From: Fibrobacter sp.
GTDB lineage: Bacteria; Fibrobacterota; Fibrobacteria; Fibrobacterales; Fibrobacteraceae
DNA length: 64,000 bases
NCBI GenBank assembly: GCA_017503015.1
Contig: JAFVTX010000047.1
Location: 1-64,000, forward strand
Reading direction: 5' to 3'
Of this stretch, positions 22,282-38,485 are shown one piece after another. The notes below the pieces were generated by a model. That model did no database searches. It saw nothing but the letters and a program-made list of their open reading frames with translations, and was not told the origin of the DNA. How positions within the stretch are numbered: the stretch's first letter is position 1; every line of letters starts with the position of its first letter. A program made the translations under genes and the position numbers.

Positions 22282-22293
22282 GCAGGAAAAGTG

Positions 22294-22305: not shown

Positions 22306-24606
22306 GTGGAGTATTCGGATTGTACAATTCTTGAAAAACTGGAATATCTTTCCCGTTTTTTCCCGGAAAGGGCAGCGGCCTTATACGAGCCGAAGGAGAG
22401 CCTTACCTATGGAGACCTCTGGAGTCTTTCGGGCAAGATTTACGCCTACCTCAAGAAAAGGGGCGTCGGCCCCGAAGATACGGTCATGTACTGCCTGCCC
22501 AGGGGGCTTGGACTTTATGCCGCCATCGTGGGGACCATGCGTGCAGGGGCGGCCTTTGTGCTTACCGAAACGGACAACAGCGTGCAGAGGACAGCCTTTA
22601 TCCGCCACGACTGCCAGTGCAGGGAGTACGTGGACGAAAAAGCTTTTCTGGAAATCCTTGCAACGGACCCCATGGATGGATTCGTCCCCGAAAATCTGCA
22701 TAGTCTCTGTTATATCGCCTACACCTCGGGAACTTCAGGAACACCCAAGGGAGTGCTTCACGAATATGGCTCCCTGGAAAATGCGGGGAAATCGGCTCGA
22801 TGCGAAGGAAAGCCCTTTTTGCAAACCCGGGATGTTTTTCTCTTGATGAGCCCCCTGAATTTCGTCTCCTTTCCTATTGCCTTTGCCATGGCGGTCACTG
22901 CCGGAATAACCGTCGCCATTATGCCGTACGGGTATGGGGAAACCGAAGAAAGGTTCCTGGAGTATTTGGCGCTGAACCATGTCAACGCCGGCTACGTGAC
23001 GCCCGCTTTTTTGCGAAAACATCCGTCCTTGAAACTGCCCTGGAGGCTGTGCATAATTTCTAGCGAGCCCGCCGACGGCCTGTGTGTGGAGGGAGTCGAA
23101 TGTTATAATACCTACGCTTCTACAGAAGCGGGCTGCCTCCTTGCGGTCCATAAGTTGAGCCGTCCGGAGACCCCTGCTCTGGTGGGGTTCCCCGAGTCGG
23201 ATGCTGAACTGCTCGTGCTGAACGAAGATGGGAAAAGCGCGGGCCAAGAGGAGGGCGAAATCTGTTTCAGGTCTCCCTATATTCGAGGTTATCTCCATCT
23301 GCCAGGCGAAACAAAAAGGCTTGTTCGCGATGGCATCATCCATACGGGCGATGCCGGAAAATTGACGCCAGGGGGATTCGTTGTCCGTGGCCGTTTTACG
23401 GAGATGTTCAAGGTACAGGGCTTCAGGGTTGAACCCGAAGAAATCGAAAGACTGGTTTCAGAAATTTGCGGTATCAAAAACCCCGTGGTCCGCGGGTTTG
23501 TCTATAAGGATATCTTTTCCGTAGTTGTTTTTTATACGGGCGAAGCAGATATCGATGTGGTGTCTGCCAGAGAAAAACTGATGAAGGTTCTCCCCGAATA
23601 TATGGTTCCCACCAATTTTGTCAGGTTGCCCCATTTCCCGATTCTGGAAACCGGAAAACTGGATCGGCGCCGTCTTTTGCCCAAAGAAGGGGACTGGAGC
23701 GAATTGGACAAGATAGAATCGTCAAAACTTCCTGTCGTTGGGAAGGGCCGGACATCGACAGTTCTTGGGCTAGGGAAAGACAAGGTGATGAAATTGTTCC
23801 ATGCATCCGTCCCTTTTGCGACTATCCAGGGGGAATACGAAAAGACCCGTCTGGCGCACCGGATGAACATTCCCTCTCCGGAAGCCTACGATGTCGTTCA
23901 TTCGCGAAAGCGTTACGGGATTATCATGGACTATGTGCCGGGTGAGAATTTGGAGTCTCTGCTTTTCAGGTGCCCCCGTAGGCGGGACGAACTGCTGAAA
24001 AGATATGCCGAAATGGTCAGGAAATTTCACCAGATAAGGGTACAGGATACGAGTTTGCCCGACCAGAAGGAAATGTCCATCTCCATTGCCAAAAATCTGA
24101 GCAAGGATAAGTTCTCCGTTCAGGATATCGAAAAGATTTGCAATGTATTCAGGTGCATTCCCGATAGCGACGGCTTTGTCCATGGGGACTGCCATGCCGG
24201 AAACGCCATCTTCAACGAAAACGGATTGACCTTTATCGATTTTACCTTGTGCGGCAAGGGACATCCGGTATTCGACTTGGTCTGCATGTATTCCCATTAT
24301 GTTTTCTTACCCTCTTTCGAAGACGACCAGAGTTACAGGGAACGGACCGGCGTTTCAAAGGGCGAGGCGGAAAATATTTTTGAAAGATTCATCGGTTACT
24401 ATTGCGATACCCACGACGTAAAATTTTTGGAAGAGACCAAAAGGCAGCTGCAAGGGGTTCTGGCGGCAAGGATTTGCCTCTCGTCGGTGCTTTTCCCGGG
24501 TGCCTTTAACGATCTTGTGCTGCGGTCGGTCAAGTCCATCGCTGTCGATTTTTCAGAGAGGTATTGCCGTTCCGGACGTATCAACTGGACCTGGGAGTTA
24601 TGCTAG
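22306..24606 (+). CDS. Fusion of an ANL adenylation domain and an aminoglycoside-phosphotransferase-like kinase
   Basis: A 766-residue two-domain protein. Residues about 1-455 are an AMP-forming adenylation domain: core A3 YTSGTSGTPKG (139-149), A5 NTYASTEAG (Glu274), A7 HTGDAGK (Asp349), A8 GRFTEMFKVQGFRVEPEEIE, A10 ETGKLDRRR with catalytic Lys451. No carrier-protein or condensation domain follows. Residues about 475-766 are a kinase fold: GKGRTSTVLGLG and Lys496, Brenner motif HGDCHAGN (Asp628, Asn633), then FIDFT (Asp645). This half resembles the small Fibrobacter paralogous phosphotransferase family TIGR02172. All key residues look intact. The stop overlaps the MFS gene by 7 bp, implying translational coupling. 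It might activate and phosphorylate a carboxylic acid metabolite; the substrate is unknown. An extended start at 22291 is possible. Confidence 0.87.
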   Translation: MEYSDCTILEKLEYLSRFFPERAAALYEPKESLTYGDLWSLSGKIYAYLKKRGVGPEDTVMYCLPRGLGLYAAIVGTMRAGAAFVLTETDNSVQRTAFIRHDCQCREYVDEKAFLEILATDPMDGFVPENLHSLCYIAYTSGTSGTPKGVLHEYGSLENAGKSARCEGKPFLQTRDVFLLMSPLNFVSFPIAFAMAVTAGITVAIMPYGYGETEERFLEYLALNHVNAGYVTPAFLRKHPSLKLPWRLCIISSEPADGLCVEGVECYNTYASTEAGCLLAVHKLSRPETPALVGFPESDAELLVLNEDGKSAGQEEGEICFRSPYIRGYLHLPGETKRLVRDGIIHTGDAGKLTPGGFVVRGRFTEMFKVQGFRVEPEEIERLVSEICGIKNPVVRGFVYKDIFSVVVFYTGEADIDVVSAREKLMKVLPEYMVPTNFVRLPHFPILETGKLDRRRLLPKEGDWSELDKIESSKLPVVGKGRTSTVLGLGKDKVMKLFHASVPFATIQGEYEKTRLAHRMNIPSPEAYDVVHSRKRYGIIMDYVPGENLESLLFRCPRRRDELLKRYAEMVRKFHQIRVQDTSLPDQKEMSISIAKNLSKDKFSVQDIEKICNVFRCIPDSDGFVHGDCHAGNAIFNENGLTFIDFTLCGKGHPVFDLVCMYSHYVFLPSFEDDQSYRERTGVSKGEAENIFERFIGYYCDTHDVKFLEETKRQLQGVLAARICLSSVLFPGAFNDLVLRSVKSIAVDFSERYCRSGRINWTWELC

Positions 24607-25826
24607 AAGAATTACGCCGTCGGTATTCTTGCAGGTTCTACAGGCTCTTTCCGTGGCAAAACGCCATAGAGGCGGAGCATTTGTTTTTCGTCGTCTGCGA
24701 CGTCATGTTTCTCCATGCGGTAAAGGGAGTGTCCTTTGCCCAGTTTTCTTTTTTGATTTCCTTTTCCTTGCTCTTTTCCGTAATCGTCCAGTACCCCTTG
24801 CTCAAATGTATTCACGCCGTGGGAACACGCCGGTCGGTTCAGTTGGGCAGCCTCTTTTTCCTGCTGTCGGCCCTGTGCTTTACCTTTGCCCCGAACTACT
24901 GGGTGATTATGGCAGGGGGAATCGCCAAATGTATCGGTTTTACCTTCAACTTGCTGGGGGCCGCGCTCCTTAAAGAAAAACTGGTTCAAGACGGCAGGGA
25001 CAATGAATATGTGGCATTCCAGTCAGATGCCAACAATATGGCCTGCTTGTTGATGATGCTTTCATCTTTGTTGTGCGGGTTTCTTTTTTCGTGCAATCCC
25101 TATTTCCCTATGTTCGGGTGCATAATCTTTTGCGCCTTGGGCGTTCTGTTGTCTTTTATGATAACGTCTTGTTGCGGAACTGTTGAAGAAAAACAAACTG
25201 ACGAGAAGCCCCAAATAATTAAACGGAACAAGGTGTTTTTAGGCATTCCTCTTCTCGTTTCCTTTGGGCTTTTGACGGCCATGACCGGCATAGGGCTTTC
25301 TTATGCCCGTATCAATTTCCAGGAGGCCCTGACTTTAAAGATTGACCTTACCCAAACATTGAAATTGCTTGGGGTCGTGTCTTTTCTGGTCTATCTGTTT
25401 CGCTTTCTTTCGAATGTTTTGATGTCGAAATTCTTCAGTCGGTTGGGCCGGAGGCTGTATCTCGCCCTACAGCTGGTACTTGCGGTTTCGCTGGCATTCC
25501 AGATTTTGCCGTGGGTGTGCCGCCCGACCGCACCTACACTGTTTTTGCTTTCGTTGGGGTACCTGGGCATGTCCTTTGTCCGTGACCCTTACGTGACTGC
25601 GGTTCAGAATGAATCACTCCTGGTGGAGGACCCCATAAAGAGGCAGTCCAATATGGTGACCCTGAATTTCGTAAAGAAGGTAGGCGCCCTGTTCTTGAGC
25701 ACGGTGTTTACCCTCATGCTCAAGGAAACCTCTATTTCGTCGGTGATGGTGGCGATGTGCACCCTTGCGGCGGTCTCGCTGTTTCTGGCCGCCAGTCAGT
25801 TCGTTATTGGTCGGCGGAATCATTAA
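24600..25826 (+). CDS. Major facilitator superfamily transporter
   Basis: A 408-residue membrane protein with about twelve hydrophobic helices and a charged central loop (about 205-220, VEEKQTDEKPQIIKRNKV). The ATG at 24600 lies inside the last codons of the adenylation-kinase gene (7-bp overlap), typical of translational coupling. A TTG 12 codons earlier is open but less likely. The N-terminal half has the loop 2-3 pattern expected for MFS (HAVGTRRSVQLGSLFF, replacing the G-x-x-x-D-R-x-G-R motif loosely). The tight linkage suggests it moves the product or substrate of the fusion enzyme, perhaps as an exporter. No substrate family could be recognised. Confidence 0.8.
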   Translation: MLEELRRRYSCRFYRLFPWQNAIEAEHLFFVVCDVMFLHAVKGVSFAQFSFLISFSLLFSVIVQYPLLKCIHAVGTRRSVQLGSLFFLLSALCFTFAPNYWVIMAGGIAKCIGFTFNLLGAALLKEKLVQDGRDNEYVAFQSDANNMACLLMMLSSLLCGFLFSCNPYFPMFGCIIFCALGVLLSFMITSCCGTVEEKQTDEKPQIIKRNKVFLGIPLLVSFGLLTAMTGIGLSYARINFQEALTLKIDLTQTLKLLGVVSFLVYLFRFLSNVLMSKFFSRLGRRLYLALQLVLAVSLAFQILPWVCRPTAPTLFLLSLGYLGMSFVRDPYVTAVQNESLLVEDPIKRQSNMVTLNFVKKVGALFLSTVFTLMLKETSISSVMVAMCTLAAVSLFLAASQFVIGRRNH

Positions 25827-26085: not shown

Positions 26086-26115
26086 ATGACGGGTGCCAAA
26101 ACGCTCGTCATTTTT
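26086..26115 (+). terminator. Terminator after the 28-codon gene
   Basis: 10-bp RNA stem ATGACGGGTG / CGCTCGTCAT (two G-U pairs), loop CCAAAA, then TTTT. Confidence 0.6.
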
Positions 26116-26129
26116 CGCAATCTATGGCC

Positions 26130-26145
26130 GTAGTCCATGGACAAC
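26130..26145. promoter_or_regulatory. Pectin-gene palindrome, copy 1 (upstream of PL11)
   Basis: GTAGTCCATGGACAAC followed by GCTAAAATTTGG. The half-sites match except for one base. The site lies 114 bp before the PL11 start and about 60 bp upstream of the start expected from TATATT at 26187. Confidence 0.55.
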
Positions 26146-26243
26146 GCTAAAATTTGGTTTTTTGCCTATTTTGGGAGCCTTATATATATATTATGGCTGT
26201 CGAGGTCTAGGGATTGATTTTGACAAAAAAACGGAATGGGTGT

Positions 26244-29111
26244 ATGAAAAAATTTTGGTGTTTTGGGTTGGCCCTTTGTATGGGCTTTTCTATGGCTCAG
26301 GCAGCGCGGCAGATGGAGTGGCTGAATCGCGGCCTAGTTGCCGTTAAGACGAGCGGGGGTGTGTTCCTCAGCTGGCGCGTTCTCGGAACCGATGGCGAGG
26401 CAACGGGCTTTAATTTGTATCGTGACGGCGAGAAAATCGCAAGTTTTACCGGTACGCAGGCGAGCAACTATACCGACACGAAGGGAACTACCGCAAGTAA
26501 GTACTCCGTGAAGGCCGTTGTCGGTGGCAAGGAACAGGCAGCAGATGCAGCGGTCTCTGTGTGGAATGACCAGTTTTTGACTGTGAATCTTGACCGGCCG
26601 AATGGCGGTAGCGACTATACCTATAGCCCCAACGATATTGCGGTAGGCGATGTGGATGGTGACGGTGAATTTGAGCTTATTCTCAAGTGGGATCCGAGTA
26701 ATTCCAAAGATAATTCGCAGAAGGGCAAGACCGGCAATGTGATCATTGATTGCTACAAGATGAACGGCAAGAAACTATGGCGCATTGACCTTGGTGTGAA
26801 CATTCGTGCGGGAGCTCATTATACGCAGATGCTCGTTGGCGACTATGATAGCGATGGCAGGGCGGAATTTGCCGTGAAGACGGCCCCCGGCACAAAAGAT
26901 GGAAGCGGTAGTTACCTGTCGCTCGGTTCGGCGAAGGGTGCCGACCATAGCAAGGATTATAGAAACTCCAACGGATACATTCTCTCGGGACCTGAGTGGC
27001 TCACGATTTTCAACGGCGAGACCGGCAAGGAAATGGCGACGGTGGATTATAACCCCGGACGCGGCACGGTCAAGAGCTGGGGCGATAGTTACGGCAACCG
27101 CGTGGATCGATTCCTGGCGACAAATGCCTACCTTGATGGCAAAAAACCAAGTATGGTGTTTCAGCGTGGCTATTACACCCGCATGGCGATTACCGCTTAC
27201 GATTGGGATGGAAAGTCGCTTACGCAGCGTTGGTACTACAACGCAGCTACAAGCGGTCAGGAATGCTATGGACAGGGCAATCACAACGTTTCGGCGGGCG
27301 ATGTGGATGGCGACGGCTTTGACGAAATCATCGAAGGGAGCTGTGCCATTGACCACGATGGCAAATTCATGTACCGCACGGGCAAGGGCCACGGCGATGC
27401 TATGCACCTGAGCGACCTGGACCCCGATAATGCAGGTCTTGAAGTTTGGCAGGTCCATGAAGAAAAACCCTATGGTTACGATTTGCACGATGCCCGCACC
27501 GGCAAGTTGCTTTTTAGCGAGACCAGCTCCGGCGACAACGGCCGCGGAGTTGCGGGCGATGTAGATTCAAACAGCCGCGGGCACGAACTTTGGTCTGCAG
27601 CCAACTGGAACACCTATACGGCGAAGGGTGCTATCTGGAAGGCGGATAAGCGGCCTGCCTATAACTTCCGCATTTACTGGGATGGCGACCTGCTTGATGA
27701 GCTTTTAGACAATACGACCATTAGCAAGTGGGACCACGCCAAGCTGCAGAGCAGTACGATTTTCCAGATGCAGGGCAACAGTTGCAACACCACCAAGGCA
27801 ACGCCGAACTTTAGCGGAGACATTCTTGGCGATTGGCGAGAAGAAGTCATTCTGCACGATGGGGCGTCTAAGCTTTACATCTACACGACCACGATTCCGA
27901 CAGAACATCGCATGTATACGCTGGCCCATGATCCAGTTTATCGCCTGGGAATGAGCTGGCAGAACACCGCCTACAACCAGCCACCGCATCTAGGATTTTG
28001 GCTGCACGGCAACAAGGGCAAGTTCCCGGTGCCCGATATTACGCTTATTGGCGACAACACGCCGAAGGCGGCCGCAATCGTGAAACAGGGGGCAGGAAGT
28101 TCTAGCCAGTTTATCGTGAAGGGTGATGCCATTGTGCCGTTTACTTTTGCGATTCAATATGCCGATGGGGCTACGGTAGAAGGCCTTCCGGCGGGAGTAA
28201 CAGCGGCTTGGAACGCTTCCACAAGTTCGCTCTATTTTAGCGGGACTCCGACTGTAGAAGGTGAATTTACCTATACGATTACGACCAAGGGTGGAAATGC
28301 TGACTTTGGCGAGGCTACTCGCAGCGGGACTATCACTATCTTGAGCGTTGTAGAATCCGGTCCGGCACCGGTGTCGATTTTGAGTGACATTGAGGCTGCT
28401 GTTCCGACCGATGCGAAGGGCATGGCAAATAATAACCATGAAAACTTCCGTGGCGAAGGATTCTACGACTTTGAAAATAGCCTGGATAGTTATGGTATTT
28501 ACCACCTTGTTTCGCCAAAGGCCTACGACAATGCCACGATGGTGCTGCGCTATGCTCACGGAAAGACGGATACGCGCCGCATTATGGTGAAGATGAATGA
28601 CGACCTGATTGGTTCGCTGACCTTCGCGCCGACTGCGGATTGGGATACGTGGGATTCCGTAATGGTTTCTGTAAACTTGAAGGCGGGCCTCAACATTCTT
28701 TATTTGAAGTCCCTGGAAGAAAACGGAGCTCCGAATTTAGACCAATTGGCTTTCGACGTACCGGGAGTGAGCCTTTATGAGAGCGAATCTCAGCTTTCGG
28801 GAATAGACTCTCTGCAAGTAAAGGCAGGCGAGTCTGAAAGTGCGGCACTCAATTCAAATCTCCGCCTCGCTAATGGCGTATATGTGAACTTTAGTGAAAA
28901 TACGATTGTCACACACCATGGCGGCAATGTAGAATTGGGCTTTTTTGACATGAAGGGCCACTGTATAGCGCGAATTGCCAAGAACGTTCCGGCAGGGAAT
29001 ACTGACCTGGGCGAACAGGTAAAAAATCTACCTGGAGGAATTTACGTGGTTCAGGTAAAGTTCAACGGCAAGAAACTTAAAAACGTGATGCGAACAAAAA
29101 TCAACAGGTAA
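26244..29111 (+). CDS. Secreted rhamnogalacturonan endolyase (PL11) with CBM35
   Basis: A 955-residue enzyme that cleaves the rhamnogalacturonan I backbone of pectin by beta-elimination. The ATG at 26244 starts a signal peptide (MKKFWCFGLALCMGFSMAQA); ten codons further upstream are open but lack a signal. The mature protein begins with MEWLNRGLVAVKTSGGVFLSWR, close to the PL11 opening, and contains VGDVDGDGEFELILKWDPSNSKDNS and later D-x-D-x-D Ca-binding repeats of the eight-bladed propeller. An Ig-like region (about 620-700), a CBM35 (about 725-865, YGIYHLVSPKAYDNATMVLRYA) and the shared C-terminal tail (FFDMKGHCIARI...GGIYVVQVKF) follow. It heads the pectin locus. Confidence 0.94.
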   Translation: MKKFWCFGLALCMGFSMAQAARQMEWLNRGLVAVKTSGGVFLSWRVLGTDGEATGFNLYRDGEKIASFTGTQASNYTDTKGTTASKYSVKAVVGGKEQAADAAVSVWNDQFLTVNLDRPNGGSDYTYSPNDIAVGDVDGDGEFELILKWDPSNSKDNSQKGKTGNVIIDCYKMNGKKLWRIDLGVNIRAGAHYTQMLVGDYDSDGRAEFAVKTAPGTKDGSGSYLSLGSAKGADHSKDYRNSNGYILSGPEWLTIFNGETGKEMATVDYNPGRGTVKSWGDSYGNRVDRFLATNAYLDGKKPSMVFQRGYYTRMAITAYDWDGKSLTQRWYYNAATSGQECYGQGNHNVSAGDVDGDGFDEIIEGSCAIDHDGKFMYRTGKGHGDAMHLSDLDPDNAGLEVWQVHEEKPYGYDLHDARTGKLLFSETSSGDNGRGVAGDVDSNSRGHELWSAANWNTYTAKGAIWKADKRPAYNFRIYWDGDLLDELLDNTTISKWDHAKLQSSTIFQMQGNSCNTTKATPNFSGDILGDWREEVILHDGASKLYIYTTTIPTEHRMYTLAHDPVYRLGMSWQNTAYNQPPHLGFWLHGNKGKFPVPDITLIGDNTPKAAAIVKQGAGSSSQFIVKGDAIVPFTFAIQYADGATVEGLPAGVTAAWNASTSSLYFSGTPTVEGEFTYTITTKGGNADFGEATRSGTITILSVVESGPAPVSILSDIEAAVPTDAKGMANNNHENFRGEGFYDFENSLDSYGIYHLVSPKAYDNATMVLRYAHGKTDTRRIMVKMNDDLIGSLTFAPTADWDTWDSVMVSVNLKAGLNILYLKSLEENGAPNLDQLAFDVPGVSLYESESQLSGIDSLQVKAGESESAALNSNLRLANGVYVNFSENTIVTHHGGNVELGFFDMKGHCIARIAKNVPAGNTDLGEQVKNLPGGIYVVQVKFNGKKLKNVMRTKINR

Positions 29112-29141
29112 AAATTAATCTCTCAAATCCCCAACCGAAGC

Positions 29142-29170
29142 ACCCCGGCGAATGTCGGGATGTCTTTTAT
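29142..29170 (+). terminator. Terminator after PL11
   Basis: Stem CCCGGC / GTCGGG with loop GAAT, followed by ATGTCTTTTATT. Modest stem with one G-U pair. Confidence 0.5.
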
Positions 29171-29194
29171 TGTAGACAAATGAAATTTTTGCTG

Positions 29195-29210
29195 GTTGTC
29201 TAGGGACAAC
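29195..29210. promoter_or_regulatory. Pectin-gene palindrome, copy 2 (upstream of PL1)
   Basis: GTTGTCTAGGGACAAC, a perfect 6+6 inverted repeat, then CCTTAATTTG. It lies 83 bp before the PL1 start. Confidence 0.6.
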
Positions 29211-29277
29211 CCTTAATTTGCAAAACCCTACCCTTGTTGTGTAAACGAGTGTAATTTTTATGGTATAGGAGATTATT

Positions 29278-32200
29278 ATGGGATGCTTTAGACATAAAAT
29301 GTTGACATGGGCGTTTGCCCTTGGACTTGTGGGGGTGACCCATGTTTATGCGGGTTCCCCGATTGTCAAGGTGGACTTCGACATGAGCGGGCGCAATTCG
29401 AGCGAAGTTACGGAGCCCAACTATATTCCGTGGGTGGTTTCGGGTGTCACTTCCAAGGACACGACCCTTTCGGGCGTAAAAATCGGAATCGCCGGTAGCA
29501 GAAATATTAAGGCCACCTGGTACAAGGCGGGCGTGCAGTCCCCGAGCTACGCAAAACTGGTTTGCGACGGCGTGATTATTGAAAACGGCGGTAACATTAC
29601 GCTCACTTTCTCGAATCTTGCCGCTGGCTCGCACAGTTTGTTGCTTTATCTTAACGATGTCAGCGGTACGGCGACATCGAACAGCATCGATGTCTATGTG
29701 AATAACTCCAAGCAAACTTCCGTGAATCCGACGAACCGTGCGCTTTCGACATCCGAGGCCGCTACGGCGTATGTGACGTTCTCTGTAAGCGGGACTTCCG
29801 CTTCTACGGCAATCAAGTTGAATCTGAGCACGGCGACTTTGAATGCGTTTGAACTCGATGTTCCGAATGTGGCGGCACAGGCTTCCAGCCCTTCACCAAC
29901 GGATTTGGATTACCACACCCCACACGACAATGGCGCTCTCACGCTGACCTGGACGGCGGCAAGCGGCGCGACCAAGCACCGCGTATTCTTTGGCACGGAT
30001 TCTACCTCGGTCGCAAAAGCAACAACTAGCACGACAGCGATTTACAAGGGCGAACAGTCCGGCACGACCTACAAGGTTTCGGGAACGACTCCGCTTTCGA
30101 CTTATTACTGGCGCGTAGATGAAGTGAACGGTTCTACGGTGACTCAGGGCAATGTGTGGAGCTTTAAGCCGGGACGTCTTGCATTTGAAGGTGCCGAAGG
30201 CTATGGCCGTAACGCTCTCGGTGGTCGTGGTGGCAAGGTGGTTTATGTGACAAACCTGAACGACGATGGCGCAGGCAGTTTGCGCGAGGCGTGCACGGCG
30301 GATATTGGCCCGCGTACCATTATGTTCAAGGTGGCGGGCATGATTCAGCTCAAGTCCCGCTTGGTGTGTAATCATAGCCAAGTGACGATTGCAGGACAGT
30401 CTGCGCCGGGTAAAGGAATTACCATTAAGAGTGCTCCCATCGGTTTTACCGGCAACGACATGATTATCCGTTTTATGCGAGTGCGTCTGGGATACGGTCA
30501 AACTTATGACGGAATGGGACTCACCGGTGGCGACCACAGCATTCTGGATCACGCATCTATCAGCTGGACCATTGACGAGGCGTTCTCTAGCCGCGGCGGC
30601 AAGAATATCACTCTTCAACGCACCTTGATTTCGGAAGCCTTAAACGTGGCCGACCACCAGAATTATCCGTCGGGTACGGGGCATGGATACGCGGCGACCA
30701 TCGGTGGTGACATCGGAAGTTTCCACCACAACTTGCTGGCCCATAACGAGGGCCGTAACTGGAGTATGGGCGGCGGCCTTGATGGTAATGGTTATTATGC
30801 CGGTCGCTTGGATATTTTCAACAATGTGGTCTATAACTGGGAAGGCCGCGTCACGGATGGCGGCGCTCATGAGGTGAACTTTGTCGGCAATTACTACAAG
30901 GCGGGAGCTGCATCGCGCATCTTGGATTATGTGCTGAGTGCGGATCTCGAAGGAACTGGCAATGGTTCGCAGGCGTATTACTTCCACAACAATGTCTTGC
31001 AACTTAAGGATGGCTCGTTTAAGTGCGATGGTACGAATGACGGTAGCACATCGAATGGCGGGTCCGGAAAAGCAGACGCCTGCAAACGCTACACCCTGAA
31101 TAATGGACAGAATCTCAATTGGAATGTGTGGAACAGCAAGCCCTTCTTTGAATCTTATGCGACCATCCAGGGCGCAAAGGCTGCCTATAAGGACGTGTTG
31201 AGCGATGTGGGCCAGCGTATGCCAATTTTAGACAACCACGATCAGCGTATGATTCGCGAAACCAAGAACGGAACCTATAGCGCCACGGGTTCCAAGAGCG
31301 GACTCCCCGGAATCCCTGACCGTGAAACTGATGTCACCGATACCGCGAATATCAAGGGCTGGGAACCGTATCCGAGTGCGAGCTGGGCAGACGGTTACGA
31401 TAGCGACCTTGACGGTCTCCCGGACTGGTGGGAAAATATGTATGGCTATAATCCGAAATCCAAGAGTGGCGACTTTAGCGATGCGAATAAGGACCGCCTG
31501 GGTGATGGTTGGACAGAACTGGAACGCTACCTGGAGTGGATGGCTCGCGCCCACTATACTTTTGCAAAGGGTGAAACCCAGGTGATTGACCTTTCGCAGT
31601 TTACTGCAGGCTATGACAACGGAACTTACACGGTTTCCGCTCCGACAGGCGTGACTGCAACTGTGAACGGCTCCAAGATGACGGTCAAGCTTGCCGATAA
31701 TTTCGGTGGCGTTGGCTACATCAAGTTTACGCTTAAGGACAAGGAAGGCGACTCCTTCGGCCGTTATATCGGCGTGACCCAGCAACTTGCCGCAAGTGCT
31801 ACTACTCCCACAAGTTCTTCTTCCTCGGAAGCTGTTACGCCGGCATCTAGCAGTTCCGTGACTCCGGCTTCTGCTGCAGGAAGTGCCGACGGTGTTTACC
31901 AGGCCGAAGATGGAACGCTTGCAAATGACGCAATCTTTGAAGACCGCAACACAGGATTTGCTGGAACGGGCTATGTGAACTTTGCTGCAACCGCAGGCAG
32001 TTCCACGAAGATCCCTGTAACAGTAAAGGCTGCTGGTGAATACACCGTGACACTCACCTACGCCCTTGGCAAAGACGAAACACGTAAACTTTGCATTAGG
32101 GTGGGTGGTGAAGAAGCCGTACAGATGGAATTTGCCTCAACGGGAACATGGACTGACTGGAAAACGGTCGACATTACACTCAACCTTGTTGCCGGTGTGA

Positions 32201-32544
32201 ACGAAATTGAGTTTGCTACCATTGATGGCGATGGGCCGAATTTGGATCAGATTAAGCTCACCCTGTCGGAAAATATATCATTTGTCGTGCCGAATTCTGT
32301 AGCAAAATTCCATTCTAGCGTTTCGAACAATATCGTGTTCATGACCGGGGTTCCGCAGAATGCAAAAATTACCGTGACTGATTTTAGTGGCAAAAACCTG
32401 ATGACACAAAAATCTATCGTGACGACAAACGGCACGGCATCGGTAAGCCTCCAAGATTACGGCTGTGGCATTTACCTAGTGAATATTCGCAGTATTTATG
32501 GTAGTGCCAAGTTTAACAAGACCATCAAGGTTATGCGTAGATAA
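29278..32544 (+). CDS. Secreted pectate lyase (PL1-type) with FnIII-like, Ca-binding and CBM35 modules
   Basis: A 1088-residue protein. The RBS is TAGGAG with 6-nt spacing. Order: signal peptide (about 1-25), a malectin/CBM-like beta domain (26-195), FnIII-like domain (about 200-295, YYWRVDEVNG), parallel beta-helix lyase (about 300-640; EGAEGYGRNALGGRGGKVVYVT, FKVAGMIQLKSRL, DHASISWTIDEAFS, GRNWSMGGG), a TSP3-like Ca-binding segment (about 705-735, DSDLDGLPDWWENMYG), Ser-rich linker, CBM35 (about 868-1000) and the shared C-terminal tail. It would cleave polygalacturonate by Ca-dependent beta-elimination. The subfamily (PL1_2-like) is from memory of the EGAEGYG opening. Confidence 0.92.
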   Translation: MGCFRHKMLTWAFALGLVGVTHVYAGSPIVKVDFDMSGRNSSEVTEPNYIPWVVSGVTSKDTTLSGVKIGIAGSRNIKATWYKAGVQSPSYAKLVCDGVIIENGGNITLTFSNLAAGSHSLLLYLNDVSGTATSNSIDVYVNNSKQTSVNPTNRALSTSEAATAYVTFSVSGTSASTAIKLNLSTATLNAFELDVPNVAAQASSPSPTDLDYHTPHDNGALTLTWTAASGATKHRVFFGTDSTSVAKATTSTTAIYKGEQSGTTYKVSGTTPLSTYYWRVDEVNGSTVTQGNVWSFKPGRLAFEGAEGYGRNALGGRGGKVVYVTNLNDDGAGSLREACTADIGPRTIMFKVAGMIQLKSRLVCNHSQVTIAGQSAPGKGITIKSAPIGFTGNDMIIRFMRVRLGYGQTYDGMGLTGGDHSILDHASISWTIDEAFSSRGGKNITLQRTLISEALNVADHQNYPSGTGHGYAATIGGDIGSFHHNLLAHNEGRNWSMGGGLDGNGYYAGRLDIFNNVVYNWEGRVTDGGAHEVNFVGNYYKAGAASRILDYVLSADLEGTGNGSQAYYFHNNVLQLKDGSFKCDGTNDGSTSNGGSGKADACKRYTLNNGQNLNWNVWNSKPFFESYATIQGAKAAYKDVLSDVGQRMPILDNHDQRMIRETKNGTYSATGSKSGLPGIPDRETDVTDTANIKGWEPYPSASWADGYDSDLDGLPDWWENMYGYNPKSKSGDFSDANKDRLGDGWTELERYLEWMARAHYTFAKGETQVIDLSQFTAGYDNGTYTVSAPTGVTATVNGSKMTVKLADNFGGVGYIKFTLKDKEGDSFGRYIGVTQQLAASATTPTSSSSSEAVTPASSSSVTPASAAGSADGVYQAEDGTLANDAIFEDRNTGFAGTGYVNFAATAGSSTKIPVTVKAAGEYTVTLTYALGKDETRKLCIRVGGEEAVQMEFASTGTWTDWKTVDITLNLVAGVNEIEFATIDGDGPNLDQIKLTLSENISFVVPNSVAKFHSSVSNNIVFMTGVPQNAKITVTDFSGKNLMTQKSIVTTNGTASVSLQDYGCGIYLVNIRSIYGSAKFNKTIKVMRR

Positions 32545-32575
32545 GTCGCAAATGGAACCTTATACACTTAACAAA

Positions 32576-32607
32576 AAAGGCCTAGGCTCGAATGAGTCTA
32601 GGCCTTT
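32576..32607. terminator. Strong bidirectional terminator between PL1 and the TIGR02147-type gene
   Basis: 14-bp stem (AAAGGCCTAGGCTC / GAGTCTAGGCCTTT, one G-U pair) with loop GAAT, A-run before and T after, so it serves both convergent genes. Confidence 0.85.
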
Positions 32608-32618
32608 ATCGAAAGCGT

Positions 32619-33470
32619 CTATTCTTTCCCGCCGACGGGGAAGAGGGCGAACTGCAGTTGGAAAACCTTGTCGCTGGATTCATCTTCTTCGGCGATGAGG
32701 GCGATCTCTTTGCGGAAGGCGTTGATGCGCTCTACGATGCGCTCGTAGCCCTCCTGGCTTATGCCGAGGGTGAGCCCTGAAATGTGACGCGTGCCCGGAG
32801 GGTCGCGGTCAATAGAATCGGCGGCGAGCTTTAGGCATTGCTGATGGTATCCGCGGAGCGCGAGTCTCGAAGTGCGGTCGCCGGTAGTGATGGCGTTTTC
32901 GGTAAGCGTGTAGTTGCCGCCCTTGTCTTTTTTAATGAGCAGGCAGTCTTCGAGAAGCTTTACGGACTTTTTTGCTTCTTCGGCGGTGATGCGGGGGTGT
33001 ACCCTTTTTGCGAGTGTCTCGTAGTCACCGTCAAAACCGAACATGCCGATAAGGCTGCGTATGGTGAGGTGCCTCCAGTCTGAATACACCATGTATTGCG
33101 TGTGCCCGAGCAGGTGCTGCTTTTCGGCAAATCGCACGACCTTGAGTACGGCCTGCATCTCGTTAAATGCAGCGTTCCTTTCTTCGGTGGTTTCGGCCTG
33201 GTTGAACTTGACGAGGGCTATAAAGAATTCCGTCTCGTGCTTGCCGAGTCGAAGCCCGCTTGCAACTTTAGGAATGCTCTGGCTCGAAAGGTTCTTGTCG
33301 CCGTTCATGACGCGGCTGATGAAATCTTTCGCCTTGAAACCGATCTTGTCCGAGAACACGCGGAGCGAGAAGGCCGGGTTGGCCTCCTTCTTTGCGTTGT
33401 AGTAATCCTTCAGAAATTCCCGGTAGTCCAGGTATTCGAAGATTTTCTTTGTCGGTTTCGTGACTCCCAT
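32619..33470 (-). CDS. TIGR02147-family (Fibrobacter lineage) putative transcriptional regulator
   Basis: A 283-residue protein matching, from memory, the TIGR02147 paralogous family expanded in Fibrobacter and related bacteria. The N-terminus IFEYLDYREFLKDYYNAKKE is the family opening. Residues about 35-75 (FSLRVFSDKIGFKAKDFISRVMNGDKNLSSQSIPKVASGL) read as an Xre-like helix-turn-helix, here described in parts. A second winged-helix-like section spans about 155-200 (AEEAKKSVKLLEDCLLIKKD). It lies between two pectate lyase genes, divergent from the second one with a 184-bp shared upstream region that contains the palindrome at 33524. It is the obvious candidate to control the locus, but this is inference. 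Confidence 0.82.
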   Translation of the reverse strand: MGVTKPTKKIFEYLDYREFLKDYYNAKKEANPAFSLRVFSDKIGFKAKDFISRVMNGDKNLSSQSIPKVASGLRLGKHETEFFIALVKFNQAETTEERNAAFNEMQAVLKVVRFAEKQHLLGHTQYMVYSDWRHLTIRSLIGMFGFDGDYETLAKRVHPRITAEEAKKSVKLLEDCLLIKKDKGGNYTLTENAITTGDRTSRLALRGYHQQCLKLAADSIDRDPPGTRHISGLTLGISQEGYERIVERINAFRKEIALIAEEDESSDKVFQLQFALFPVGGKE

Positions 33471-33523
33471 GCCATAAATGTAAGAAAAAAGCCTGTTTGC
33501 GGTGCTGGGCGATATATAATAGC

Positions 33524-33539
33524 GTTGTCCAGGAACAAC
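33524..33539. promoter_or_regulatory. Pectin-gene palindrome, copy 3 (between regulator and second PL1)
   Basis: GTTGTCCAGGAACAAC followed by GGTAAATTGGGG. It lies 131 bp before the PL1 start and 54 bp before the regulator start. A further partial copy (GTTGTCCGGGAAA) sits near 33637. Confidence 0.6.
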
Positions 33540-33654
33540 GGTAAATTGGGGTCGACGGAAAAATTGGTGGCAAAAACACCCTTTTTGAGGTAGATTTTAC
33601 CTAGTTCCCGCGAAAGTCGTGCAGATGTCTGCGTTGTCCGGGAAAGGGTGTATT

Positions 33655-36219
33655 ATGTTGAAAAGGATGTTTGGAACCGTGGCGTGCGGAGTGTGGGTTG
33701 CCGTCGCGGCGATAAGCCCCTCCGAGGTGGTGTCGCTTCCGGGCGACGCCGCCTACGGTGGTGGTGACAAGGTGGGTTCGCAGCTGGTGGCCGCGACATA
33801 CAATGCGGGTGAGGGTCCGGGTATCTGGATTGTGGCCGATGGCGGCTACAGGCTCTACCACAATGGCGCGCTCCTTGCCGAAGACAATCAGGCGGGCCGC
33901 GTGCGCTTTGTGCCGATGACCTTCTTGCCGGGTGAGAACGCGATTTCGGTCGTGGGCGTGAACGGCCAGGGTGCTCCCGGTGTCATGGTACAGATTGATG
34001 ACCTCGACAAGTCCTACTATTCCGGCAGCGGCTGGAAATCGAAACCCGTGGTAAGCAACAACTCCTGGAAGAACAAGGGCCGCGACCTTAGCCAATGGGG
34101 TGGGGCGACTACCCTGAACTATGCGAGCAACAAGCTCCCGAGCGGGGCTGCCCTTACGGGATTTGCAGCGAATACGCAGGCCAAGTGGATCTGGAGCGGC
34201 GCGGAAACCGACCCGATGGCGGTTTTGCTGTTCACGTTCAACGTGAAGGCCGAAGGCTTCGGCGCCAATACCACCGGCGGCGATGCGGGTAACATCGTTA
34301 TCGCGAGCGATACCGCCACTATTCGTAAGTATATGCAGAGTAACGATGCGGTGACAATCCTTGTGCCCGAAGGTACTTACGACTTCAGAAAGTTCGTAGA
34401 TGCGGCCACATCTGCCGCCAATTCGGGATGGACTTGGTGCAAGTCTTCCTGTGGCAACACTGTCAATTCCAACAACACCTTTTACCGTATCAGCTTTACG
34501 CAGAACAGCTGTTCTGGCCTTAGCGAACAGACCACGATGGTGTCTGCGGGTGAAATCAAGAGTTGGAGCAACTGGATTACGACCAAGGGCAACAAGAGCC
34601 TCGTGGGTATGGGCCGTGGCGCAAATATGCGCGGTGTTTCGTGGTCAAACCGTTCCTACGAAGGTGCCAAGAACAACATTTATCGCAACTTGGCCCTTTA
34701 CGATGTGAACCCGCACCTTATTGAGGGGGGCGATGGTCTCGAAGTGAGCGGCAGCGGCGGCAAGGAAGTTGAAAATATGTGGTTCGACCACATCAGCTAC
34801 AAATGGATTAGTGACGGCATGGACTTGGAATATGTCAAGGGCATCACCGTTTCGTATCTAGACTATGATGGCAGCAACGAGTACAACTGCTACTATTACG
34901 ATCCGTATATGCACCTGGTCGAAACGGCGCAGCTGACTTTTGCGAATGTCTATTGGCACAATTCTTTTGGACGCGTTCCCAAGGTGACGAGCGAGGCGGA
35001 TGGTTCCTACGCCTCGATGGTCCACATCTACAATTCCTATGTGGATTACAACCACTGGCATGTGATTGATGCCTCCGGGAAAAGCGACAAGAAGACGCAA
35101 GTCCTTTACGAAAACAACTATGTGAAAAATCCGCAAATTCAGGTGGCCGGAAAGGATGCCTATTCCTTGATCAAGTTCAAGAATACGACGGTCACCGGAG
35201 CAAAGAGTTCCACCCCCTATAACAACAATGGAACATCTCAGGCGTCGGTGTTCAACGACAATGTCTTTACGCCTTCTTATTCTTACGAACTACGCAGCAA
35301 TTCAAGCCTTCCTACCGACCTCCCGAAACTTGTGGGCGTGGGTGGCCGCTATGGCAAGATGCCCGAATACAACCAGGCTTTCGGACTGAGCAACAAGGCG
35401 GCGACGGTCTCGATGACCGCCCCTGCGTCGGGTGCGAAGTTCGAAGTGGGTGCGACGGTGACCTTGAAGGCCGACGCGAAGGATAGCGATGGTTCCGTAA
35501 AGAGCGTCGCCTTCTATGTGGGCAATACTTTGGTCGGCTCTGCGACAAGCGCTCCCTACCAGGTCAACGCGAGTGGGCTTGAGCCGGGCATGTATTCCGC
35601 AGTTGCAGTCGTGACGGACAATTCGGGTCTTTCGCAGATGTCCGCGTTCGTGACCTTCTCTGTCGAAGGGACTGCCTACCCTGAGGTTGTAAAGTGCGGT
35701 GGGGGTTCCAGCAGCCAGAGCATCAACCTGGGCGAACCGATTGTGGATTTCTGCTACACTTGGAGCGGCGCCGAGACGGTCGTGCCCCAAGGCTTCCCGG
35801 CGGGTGTTACGACTAGCATCGACAAGGAAAACCGCAAGATTTCTATCAGCGGTACTCCCACTGCGGCTGGCGAATACGCCTTCACCGTCACGGCCACCAA
35901 CAATGATTCCACATTTATTAAGAGAGGTCGCATTGTGGTGACGGACCCGAACGCTCCTGTGTCTTCTTCAAGTGCTGAACCGGAGTCTTCTTCGGGTGAA
36001 TCGGGCGAAGTCGTGGAATCCAGCAGCGGGACGACCTCTATCACCACCCGCGCAACAAACTTCGCGACCGAGGCCGAAACCGCGTACTACCGTATATTCG
36101 ACATGCAGGGTAGGCCGCTCTATTTCGGCGACAGAATGCCCTCGCATATGCCTGCCATCCGCATCATCGTCGTAGAATATTCTCAAAAGGGTACGGTAAT
36201 GCGTCGTTATGTACAATAA
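33655..36219 (+). CDS. Secreted pectate lyase (PL1) with bacterial Ig domains
   Basis: An 854-residue enzyme. The ATG at 33655 is chosen for its signal peptide (MLKRMFGTVACGVWVAVAAI) and GAAAGGGTGTATT; a start 12 codons earlier is open. A carbohydrate-binding-like region (about 30-200) precedes the parallel beta-helix lyase (about 210-510: GNKSLVGMGRGANMRGVSW, DGLEVSG, WFDHISYKWISDGMD, NSFGRVPKV), where the Asp residues before and after WFDHISY are the Ca-binding candidates and the R in GRVPKV the catalytic arginine. Then come a bacterial Ig-like domain (about 582-670), a putative-Ig domain (about 690-765), Ser linker and the shared tail (FDMQGRPLYFGD). It should depolymerise pectate along with PL11 and the other PL1. 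Confidence 0.92.
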   Translation: MLKRMFGTVACGVWVAVAAISPSEVVSLPGDAAYGGGDKVGSQLVAATYNAGEGPGIWIVADGGYRLYHNGALLAEDNQAGRVRFVPMTFLPGENAISVVGVNGQGAPGVMVQIDDLDKSYYSGSGWKSKPVVSNNSWKNKGRDLSQWGGATTLNYASNKLPSGAALTGFAANTQAKWIWSGAETDPMAVLLFTFNVKAEGFGANTTGGDAGNIVIASDTATIRKYMQSNDAVTILVPEGTYDFRKFVDAATSAANSGWTWCKSSCGNTVNSNNTFYRISFTQNSCSGLSEQTTMVSAGEIKSWSNWITTKGNKSLVGMGRGANMRGVSWSNRSYEGAKNNIYRNLALYDVNPHLIEGGDGLEVSGSGGKEVENMWFDHISYKWISDGMDLEYVKGITVSYLDYDGSNEYNCYYYDPYMHLVETAQLTFANVYWHNSFGRVPKVTSEADGSYASMVHIYNSYVDYNHWHVIDASGKSDKKTQVLYENNYVKNPQIQVAGKDAYSLIKFKNTTVTGAKSSTPYNNNGTSQASVFNDNVFTPSYSYELRSNSSLPTDLPKLVGVGGRYGKMPEYNQAFGLSNKAATVSMTAPASGAKFEVGATVTLKADAKDSDGSVKSVAFYVGNTLVGSATSAPYQVNASGLEPGMYSAVAVVTDNSGLSQMSAFVTFSVEGTAYPEVVKCGGGSSSQSINLGEPIVDFCYTWSGAETVVPQGFPAGVTTSIDKENRKISISGTPTAAGEYAFTVTATNNDSTFIKRGRIVVTDPNAPVSSSSAEPESSSGESGEVVESSSGTTSITTRATNFATEAETAYYRIFDMQGRPLYFGDRMPSHMPAIRIIVVEYSQKGTVMRRYVQ

Positions 36220-36246
36220 ACCCTTCCATTTTTCTTGATTCTTATT

Positions 36247-36252
36247 TATATT
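36247..36252 (+). promoter_or_regulatory. TATATT -10 element, leaderless-type promoter
   Basis: TATATT, 7 nt, ATG at 36260. Confidence 0.5.
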
Positions 36253-36259
36253 GGTATTG

Positions 36260-37939
36260 ATGAGATCCTGTAAGAATATCCTGGCTATGTTGGCGGCGGC
36301 TGCCGCCTTTTCGGGGTGTTCTTCTGCCGATAAGGTGGCGGGTAACAGTGCTGAGACTGGTTCTCCGGAACTTGCGGGAATTTTGGTGCTAAATGACGGC
36401 AAGCTAGCCGCCCATGCGCGTGTACAATGTGTGCCTGAAGGCTACGATGCTACGTCCGATAAGGCGTTGCCGACCGCTTTTTTAACCGAGACAGATGAGA
36501 ACGGCTATTACAGCTTAGATTCTGTGCCCGATGGAACGTATGCACTAGAAGCTTTCCACGAGAAATCGGGCAAGCGTCTCTTGGTGCAGGGAATTAAGGT
36601 GACAGAAGATGATTCTGTGGCCGTAAGCGATACACTGCGTGCGCCGGGGGTGGTGAAGATTAAGGGGCCTGGTAGTCTTGAAGAGGGCGCAACGGGTGTT
36701 GCGACGGTACTCGGGACGACCATTCATAGGGCGGTGAAGGTTTCCCATTCCGTGATTGTGGTGGATAGCCTGCCGGCAGGTTCACTTAATTTGCGGGTAA
36801 TCTTTGGTCGTGAGCAGCTTAGCCCGCTGACTTTTGAGAAGGTTAAAGTTGTAGCTGGTGATACGGAGACCGTTGTATTGCCGAGTGTGATTGAGCCGGA
36901 TGCCGGGATTTCTTGGGATTCTGTTTCCTTTAACTTTGTAGCCCCGCTTGCACTTCCCAAGGGTACGGATACGCTGACATCTTTCGTGAGCAATATTCCG
37001 ATTGCCATTCGCCTGACGGCAGACAACTTTCCCTTCGATTCGATTGCGAATATGAACGGCCGTTGGGAGGCCGTGCGCATATCGAAAAATGGCAACCGTA
37101 GCAAAAAACTTCCGATTTCGTACCCCGATTTTGATAAGCGTGCAAAAGAGGCTGTGCTCTGGGTGAACGTAGATTCGCTGAACGTGGGTGATTCACTGGA
37201 ACTTTCTTATGATGGCTTGCAGTATTCCGCCTACGCACGGGATGTTTTTCCGACGAACCGAAGCTACTCTCTGGTGTGGCATTTTGGCAATGCCCTTTCT
37301 CCTGTTACTGATGCTTCCGAGTATGGTTATTTTGATGGAAGTGCACTTAGTTCTGTTTATTCAGATGCGTTCGTCGATGGTGCTGTGGGCGGCGGTATAA
37401 AATTTGATTCGGCTTATTACTTCTATGTTGACAATTCTGCGAAGCCCGACAGCGCACGTAAGGTGAACTTGAACTTTGATGGTAGTGGATATTTCTGTTT
37501 TTCGGTGTGGGTAAAGCTTGATGCAGTTGACAAGGAACAAACCATTTTTGAAAAGGCCAAGGAATACGCGTTGCGTTTTGATCCGGCCAAGGGCTTTGTC
37601 GTAGAACTATGGGTTCCTGGTGCGGATTCTGATTCTGTAAAATACGCTTGGGCGTCCGGTAAATCGAGTGTTAAGGCCGGCGAATGGACCTACATTGCAT
37701 TTAGCCATCATACAAATTCTCAAACAAACTTCTACGTAAACGACCTTAAGGTTGAATCAGACCCAGAAGAAACGGCCTGGACGGATGCTCGTAATTTGAC
37801 TGACTTTAAGGTCGGAGGCTTTGCCGGCGTAATTGACGAACTTATGCTCGGCGGGTGCTTCCGCGATGATTCCTGGACTCGCCTTACTTATTTGAACCAA
37901 CGTCCCGATAATTACTGGCCTGTGGTTACGCCTAGATAG
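36260..37939 (+). CDS. Lipoprotein with carboxypeptidase-regulatory-like and LamG domains
   Basis: A 559-residue predicted lipoprotein, lipobox FSGC (Cys near 20). Residues about 38-115 form a beta-sandwich similar to carboxypeptidase regulatory domains (VLNDGKLAAHARVQCVPEG, YYSLDSVPDGTYALEAF). A middle region of unknown type (about 115-340) follows. Residues about 385-555 are a LamG/concanavalin-like domain (FCFSVWVKLDAV, GEWTYIAFSH, NFYVNDLKV, IDELMLGGCFRDDSW). Proteins of this layout are common in cellulolytic bacteria and may bind glycans at the surface. A leaderless-type TATATT sets the start; an upstream TTG is open. Its 3' end overlaps a LamG gene fragment on the other strand by 8 bp. 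Confidence 0.8.
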   Translation: MRSCKNILAMLAAAAAFSGCSSADKVAGNSAETGSPELAGILVLNDGKLAAHARVQCVPEGYDATSDKALPTAFLTETDENGYYSLDSVPDGTYALEAFHEKSGKRLLVQGIKVTEDDSVAVSDTLRAPGVVKIKGPGSLEEGATGVATVLGTTIHRAVKVSHSVIVVDSLPAGSLNLRVIFGREQLSPLTFEKVKVVAGDTETVVLPSVIEPDAGISWDSVSFNFVAPLALPKGTDTLTSFVSNIPIAIRLTADNFPFDSIANMNGRWEAVRISKNGNRSKKLPISYPDFDKRAKEAVLWVNVDSLNVGDSLELSYDGLQYSAYARDVFPTNRSYSLVWHFGNALSPVTDASEYGYFDGSALSSVYSDAFVDGAVGGGIKFDSAYYFYVDNSAKPDSARKVNLNFDGSGYFCFSVWVKLDAVDKEQTIFEKAKEYALRFDPAKGFVVELWVPGADSDSVKYAWASGKSSVKAGEWTYIAFSHHTNSQTNFYVNDLKVESDPEETAWTDARNLTDFKVGGFAGVIDELMLGGCFRDDSWTRLTYLNQRPDNYWPVVTPR

Positions 37940-38273
37940 GCTTATAAGAACTGTATTTGGCTTTAATCCATTCAGGGCTACGTGCCCCCGTTTCTACGAT
38001 TACATTGCTGATTGCGCCGTTCCAGGTCTCAGTCTCGATTTCGTTACCGCCTATGCGGAAAGGTACACTGCGGTTCAGTTTGTTGGGAACGAATTCCATT
38101 GAGAATTCGGTGCCGTTGGTACCCGTAATCGGGACGGGCTCGCCGTTCACGTACATGCTCACCAGGTGGTTCCTAGAAACGAGTGTCAAGAAAATCCATT
38201 CACCGACAGGAATAGAGGCCGAATCCCCGAAGTACACTGCTTCGTGCAGGGCAGGATAATCCTTTCGGGCCAT
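37932..38273 (-). pseudogene. Truncated LamG-domain gene (C-terminal fragment)
   Basis: A 113-codon minus-strand frame encodes only the second half of a LamG-like domain (PVGEWIFLTLVSRNHLVSMYVNGEPV, quoted in part; VPFRIGGNE, WNGAISNVIVETGARSPEWIKAKY). There is no signal peptide, and the frame is closed a few codons upstream of its first Met, so most of the original gene is missing. The fragment resembles the LamG domain of the adjacent lipoprotein in architecture (GEW.., YVNG, EWIKA) and may be debris of a related gene. Confidence 0.6.
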
Positions 38274-38285
38274 GCCGGTTTGCCC

Positions 38286-38366
38286 GGCTTTACAATTTCT
38301 GTACCCTATGCGGGCAATTACTTGTTACGCGTAGGCAATCGGCTGGGCCGTATCATGGCAAGGTGA
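38286..38366 (+). pseudogene. Orphan C-terminal tail of a lost secreted protein
   Basis: The plus-strand frame reads FTISVPYAGNYLLRVGNR then LGRIMAR and a stop. This is the same kind of ending as the tails of the secreted enzymes here (pattern G-x-Y-x-V/L-R-V...). No enzyme precedes it; the upstream bases are the antisense LamG fragment. It looks like the 3' scar of a deleted or rearranged gene. Confidence 0.5.
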
Positions 38367-38485
38367 CGGGAAAATCCCACTTTTTAGGGAGAGGAACGTG
38401 CCAGCCGTCCAAAGAGAATTGTATTTTTCTGTGCGGTACCGAACGATACCTTTAAAAATGCACAAACTGCAAAAAAGGTTAAATT

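Follow-up and report, generated by a model that had tools for sequence, protein, structure and literature searches.

The window analysed here, a 64,000-nucleotide stretch of Fibrobacter sp. DNA, carries a gene that joins an adenylation (A) domain to an APH-like kinase and that overlaps a gene for an MFS transporter:

22306..24606, + strand: A-domain/APH-kinase fusion gene, 766 aa, GTG start (alternative in-frame GTG at 22291)
22306..23700, + strand: NRPS-type adenylation (ANL) domain, residues 1-465 (PF00501, LgrA alignment, EntF pocket mapping)
22720..22752, + strand: A3 P-loop YTSGTSGTPKG, residues 139-149 (sequence, ortholog alignment)
23656..23658, + strand: A10 catalytic Lys451 (ETGKLDRR), invariant (ortholog alignment, pocket mapping)
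23701..24603, + strand: APH-fold kinase domain, residues 466-766 (PF01636; Foldseek match to APH(2''))
24181..24204, + strand: Brenner/catalytic loop HGDCHAGN, residues 626-633 (ortholog alignment)
24238..24240, + strand: metal-binding Asp645 (FIDF), invariant (ortholog alignment)
24600..24606, + strand: 7-bp overlap of the fusion 3' end and the MFS start, TTATGCTAG (sequence)
24600..25826, + strand: MFS transporter gene, 408 aa, ATG start (PF07690; MFS fold model)

An earlier note on this DNA had described one polypeptide with an ANL adenylation domain and an APH-like kinase but no carrier or condensation domain, and an MFS gene starting 7 bp inside its 3' end. This anatomy is borne out. Pfam identifies an AMP-binding domain (PF00501, residues 19-329, 134.8 bits against a cut-off of 29.9) and an APH domain (PF01636, residues 491-668, 78.3 bits against 23.2), each with its motifs, and finds no PP-binding or condensation domain in the fusion, which is not an NRPS module by this test. 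The MFS ATG lies at 24600 and the fusion stop codon at 24604-24606, giving the 7-bp overlap.

Adenylation domain, kinase and transporter

The PF00501 score, the P-loop and the A10 lysine place the A half in the ANL/AMP-binding superfamily, and an alignment to LgrA shows the C-terminal A subdomain to be present up to residue 463. Its best sequence matches are NRPS adenylation domains of the EntF/LgrA type (LgrA, E=3e-61); unlike these NRPSs, the fusion has no carrier, condensation or release domain and lacks Asp235. By score it falls outside TIGR01733 (146.4 bits against a curated cut-off of 317.4). In a structure model of the whole fusion the A half is poorly predicted (mean pLDDT 60.7). Lys451 is identical throughout 10 aligned orthologues.

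Mapped on EntF, the pocket code of the window's A half is V235 S236 I239 Y278 I299 S301 T322 C330 L331 K517 (PheA numbering). Position 235, an Asp in TIGR01733, is Val in 12/12 aligned fusions and another non-acidic residue in the related A-T-C proteins described below. In NRPS A domains, Asp235 marks alpha-amino-acid substrates, and its replacement argues against an ordinary alpha-amino acid as the substrate of the A half. The pocket is otherwise nearly constant between lineages, with variation at position 322 (T/A/C/V), which suggests a single substrate class.

The kinase half belongs to the APH family by its PF01636 score, its HGDxHxGN motif and its metal-binding Asp. H626, G627, D628, H630, G632, N633 and D645 are identical throughout the 10 aligned orthologues, and the nearest structural match of the fold found by Foldseek is APH(2''). 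The resemblance to the Fibrobacter TIGR02172 family put forward earlier reduces to a distant relationship: the fusion scores 89.5 bits against a curated cut-off of 228.2 (a Fibrobacter member, L078, reaches 355), the kinase tree sets the two apart and the window's genome holds no true member, so we rejected this identity. The TIGR02172-group kinases of Fibrobacter have a recurrent partner of their own, adjoining a GNAT acetyltransferase gene at L078:6134-7705, L079:7216-8720 and L080:7151-9006.

The transporter is an MFS protein by score (MFS_1 PF07690, 42.2 bits against a cut-off of 33.4) and by fold, its all-helical model (pLDDT 80) matching MFS structures. The Foldseek matches, at 10-16% identity, are MFS proteins of a general kind and indicate no substrate. 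Motif A and motif C (GxxxxxxxxGxxxGPxxGG) of DHA1 drug:H+ antiporters are absent from 10/10 MFS sequences, placing the protein outside DHA1, and no NCBIfam transporter family matches it.

Distribution and conservation of the gene pair

The earlier note proposed looking for the same pair in other Fibrobacterota, and it was found in two other Fibrobacter genomes and in other phyla. The complete fusion occurs in 3/168 Fibrobacterota genomes, namely the window's own and two further Fibrobacter genomes whose copies are 98% and 87% identical, and the MFS gene is present in exactly these three among 80 Fibrobacter genomes. Outside Fibrobacter, a scan of GTDB genomes recovered full-length orthologues that are 47-54% identical; their MAGs belong to Lachnospiraceae, Christensenellales, Acidaminococcales, Gastranaerophilales and a further Clostridiales lineage, and are named Blautia, Butyrivibrio, Christensenella, Acidaminococcaceae, uncultured Clostridiales and Gastranaerophilales/Cyanobacteria. 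The DNA of the Blautia- and Butyrivibrio-named MAGs is 99.6% identical over 4.2 kb and therefore represents one lineage or a binning error. Stated sources of orthologue MAGs are sheep or goat abomasum, reindeer and red deer; a number of further MAGs are RUG assemblies, taken here to be rumen genomes. This spread excludes a Fibrobacter-specific family, so the pair is not a Fibrobacter speciality, and the recurrence of the full-length fusion excludes a gene-prediction artefact.

The MFS gene adjoins the fusion in 12/13 intact loci from several phyla; in the remaining locus, L036, it is reduced to an internally deleted remnant. The 7-bp overlap is repeated in the 87%-identical Fibrobacter locus (L032) and in two Gastranaerophilales loci (L034, L044), and elsewhere the two genes overlap by up to ~35 bp or lie up to ~26 bp apart. 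Between the window and L032, the A half and the kinase each show a dN/dS of ~0.14 and the MFS gene one of ~0.20, values that point to purifying selection on all three. Because the fusion recurs with an adjoining MFS gene in other phyla, and given these dN/dS values, the pair is real and not a product of chance. Relatives with an intact locus have the two halves fused and the active-site residues invariant; neither of the findings named earlier as fatal to the idea, halves occurring as separate genes in relatives or substitutions inactivating the active sites, was made there.

Within the sampled orders or families the pair is sporadic, occurring in 4/241, 1/248, 1/63 and 1/348 genomes, and broken copies are found at L043 and in G638, G650 and G711. 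At L041 the fusion has 52% G+C against 42% in its surroundings. A Veillonellaceae MAG (G177) holds separate, otherwise decayed copies (L042:9995-12164 and L050:4788-6425): in one the A domain is accompanied by a decayed kinase, while the other has a kinase with an MFS gene and no complete A domain. Since this kinase falls inside the fusion clade of the kinase tree, the arrangement reflects secondary loss; survival of the halves apart, in this single MAG, would fit both being used. The cassette is thus a genuine two-gene unit, conserved but rare and mobile, and in its patchiness and decay it resembles a mobile accessory module. Two other possibilities were considered and set aside: cargo of a phage or plasmid, for which there is no evidence, no plasmid or phage record containing the fusion, and a known defence protein, as none of the PADLOC defence models matches.

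Beyond the pair itself, the flanks of the loci read have no genes in common, and neighbours are unrelated between lineages. In the window, the ~12 kb directly downstream of the MFS gene (26112-38417) include a rhamnogalacturonan lyase (RGL11) and CBM-bearing proteins. L031 and L032 lack this block at the corresponding position, a difference that is an insertion or a deletion, but keep the cassette, which therefore does not belong with the adjacent pectin-degradation genes. In turn, L031:2277-2645 and L032:8211-8579 encode a 123-aa protein (MNSYKDLIVWKKSVDM...) between citrate synthase and aminotransferase genes, which is missing there in the window.

Relatives of the two halves

In the trees of both halves the fusions form one clade (support 100/100 for the A domain, 100/99 for the kinase), indicating that the fusion arose once. 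The trees are midpoint-rooted with long branches, and their exact branching order is not secure. The fusion A clade is nested with A-T-C (adenylation-thiolation-condensation) proteins (~960-1000 aa) and one larger Fibrobacter NRPS in a group supported at 100/100. A-T-C proteins are the closest A-domain lineage, at ~34-37% identity, and like the fusion they have lost Asp235 and have a transporter gene next to them. They differ in possessing carrier and condensation domains, in having a MATE rather than an MFS transporter, in their usual SpoIIE phosphatase and in lacking a kinase domain. One such locus lies on another contig of the window's own genome (L045, G000:C55, 4373-10518). The MATE gene adjoins the A-T-C gene in 12/12 loci read, tying this A lineage to product transport; a SpoIIE phosphatase is found in 9/12, a truncated SpoIIE in a tenth and STAS in several.

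In the kinase tree, the sister group of the fusion consists of STAS-APH and STAS-APH-HATPase_c_2 kinases, and some of these lie with SpoIIE, STAS and transporter genes. STAS-APH and TIGR02172 kinases share the APH fold and the conserved catalytic loop with the fusion and have no A domain; the former are tied to partner-switch genes, the Fibrobacter TIGR02172 members to the GNAT gene. The nearest relatives of both halves thus lie in transporter-linked partner-switch neighbourhoods, and the fusion joins two such lineages without their carrier, condensation or regulatory parts.

A possible pathway and its alternatives

The best explanation of the two genes is a self-contained, horizontally transferred accessory pathway. 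In the form we tentatively prefer, and to which we give somewhat less than an even chance, it would be carrier-free: the A half would adenylate a carboxylic acid other than an ordinary alpha-amino acid; the acyl-AMP would go straight to a small acceptor, or reach it through CoA, no carrier protein being involved; the APH half would use ATP to phosphorylate a hydroxyl, whether on the acid, on the acceptor or on the conjugate; and the co-translated MFS protein would export the product. Compared with an ancestral A-T-C protein, the kinase would have taken the place of the T-C part and the MFS transporter that of the MATE exporter. We infer the chemistry, the carrier-free transfer and the export; we favour export on account of the MATE transporters to which the A lineage is otherwise tied. 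At E<=1e-10, no further related A domain was found in four Gastranaerophilales hosts (G169, G170, G171, G178), and an NRPS partner acting in trans is therefore unlikely to be required. Several observations count against this reading: the MFS protein has neither DHA1 motifs A and C nor an NCBIfam family match, one MAG has the kinase and MFS genes with no adjacent A domain, and one locus has the fusion with only the deleted MFS remnant. The kinase's STAS-linked relatives near SpoIIE modules also suggest signalling rather than biosynthesis.

Known systems offer a route in the opposite direction. In E. coli, aas-lplT couples a bifunctional ANL enzyme to an MFS importer through a similar gene overlap (8 bp), although the second domain of Aas is an acyltransferase and LplT has no detectable sequence similarity to the cassette MFS. 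APH-like kinases that act on hydroxyacyl-CoA downstream of an ANL ligase are established (PMC11342911, PMC12440821), and in the levulinate pathway (LvaE and LvaA) and ACAD10/11 such a ligase and kinase act in turn on one hydroxy acid. By analogy, the MFS protein might import a hydroxy acid from gut fluid, the A half convert it to an AMP or CoA ester and the kinase phosphorylate its hydroxyl, trapping it for catabolism as LvaE and LvaA do with 4-hydroxy acids. The ruminant gut and its acids are common to the hosts, and the lack of drug-antiporter motifs fits import. The known pathways, however, use separate proteins (a kinase-dehydrogenase fusion in ACAD10/11), an acyl-CoA-synthetase-type ligase and a dedicated dehydrogenase step, whereas the A domain here is NRPS-like, and no LvaEDABC/ACAD11-type acyl-CoA dehydrogenase or other catabolic gene was recognised among the shared neighbours of the pair in the loci read. 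Uptake along the lines of Aas-LplT or LvaE/LvaA is a serious rival to export, if on balance an improbable one.

Two further readings seem to us distinctly unlikely. The cassette could protect its host, with the fusion conjugating and phosphorylating a toxic gut compound that the MFS protein then pumps out; APH(2'') as the closest APH fold, the patchy, decaying spread of two genes over phyla and the G+C contrast at L041, as in a recent transfer, would all suit this. Yet the transporter has no multidrug motifs, the PADLOC models and the plasmid and phage records yield nothing, and we know of no resistance activity for an A domain. Equally doubtful is a sensor-kinase, an offshoot of partner-switch transporter modules in which the A domain would sense an acid or ATP and control phosphorylation of the MFS or another protein. 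It would fit the fusion of sister kinases to STAS and HATPase_c_2, their position near SpoIIE, STAS and transporters (MATE-HATPase, SDF symporter), and the place of A-half relatives in SpoIIE/STAS/MATE operons; but the listed flanks of the fusion loci contain no recognised SpoIIE, STAS or HATPase_c_2 genes, a pure sensor would have no use for the retained Lys451 and P-loop, and APH-fold enzymes are mostly small-molecule kinases.

Returning to the carrier-free export pathway, the cassette looks like a compact, self-contained and previously undescribed pathway; in the open-licence literature we found no paper on an A-APH fusion or on TIGR02172. If the pathway is real, a small molecule is produced and transported by three domains from two genes, without recourse to the usual NRPS carrier machinery, and distantly related ruminant-gut bacteria have exchanged one and the same cassette. 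A bolder version, which we think unlikely, would be a new type of minimal mobile pathway: in a carrier-free, NRPS-like enzyme an APH kinase would replace the thiolation and condensation domains, and unrelated ruminant-gut bacteria would export the resulting phosphorylated acyl conjugate as a signal or metabolite that they share.

Apart from the cassette, the survey touched on wider, apparently undescribed gut modules in which transporters and SpoIIE/STAS partner-switch proteins are linked with NRPS-like enzymes or APH kinases. The A-T-C and MATE loci (L045-L048, L069-L076), from Fibrobacter and Firmicutes MAGs and mostly with SpoIIE, sometimes with STAS, look like a so far undescribed module that makes a secreted metabolite and is controlled by partner switching. 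At L086:3230-8230, L087:141-8658 and L088:404-4788, SpoIIE, STAS and STAS-APH(-HATPase_c_2) kinases lie beside transporters, which include in L087 a MATE protein fused to HATPase_c_2 and in L086 an SDF symporter extended at its N terminus, and here partner-switch control of transport is possible.
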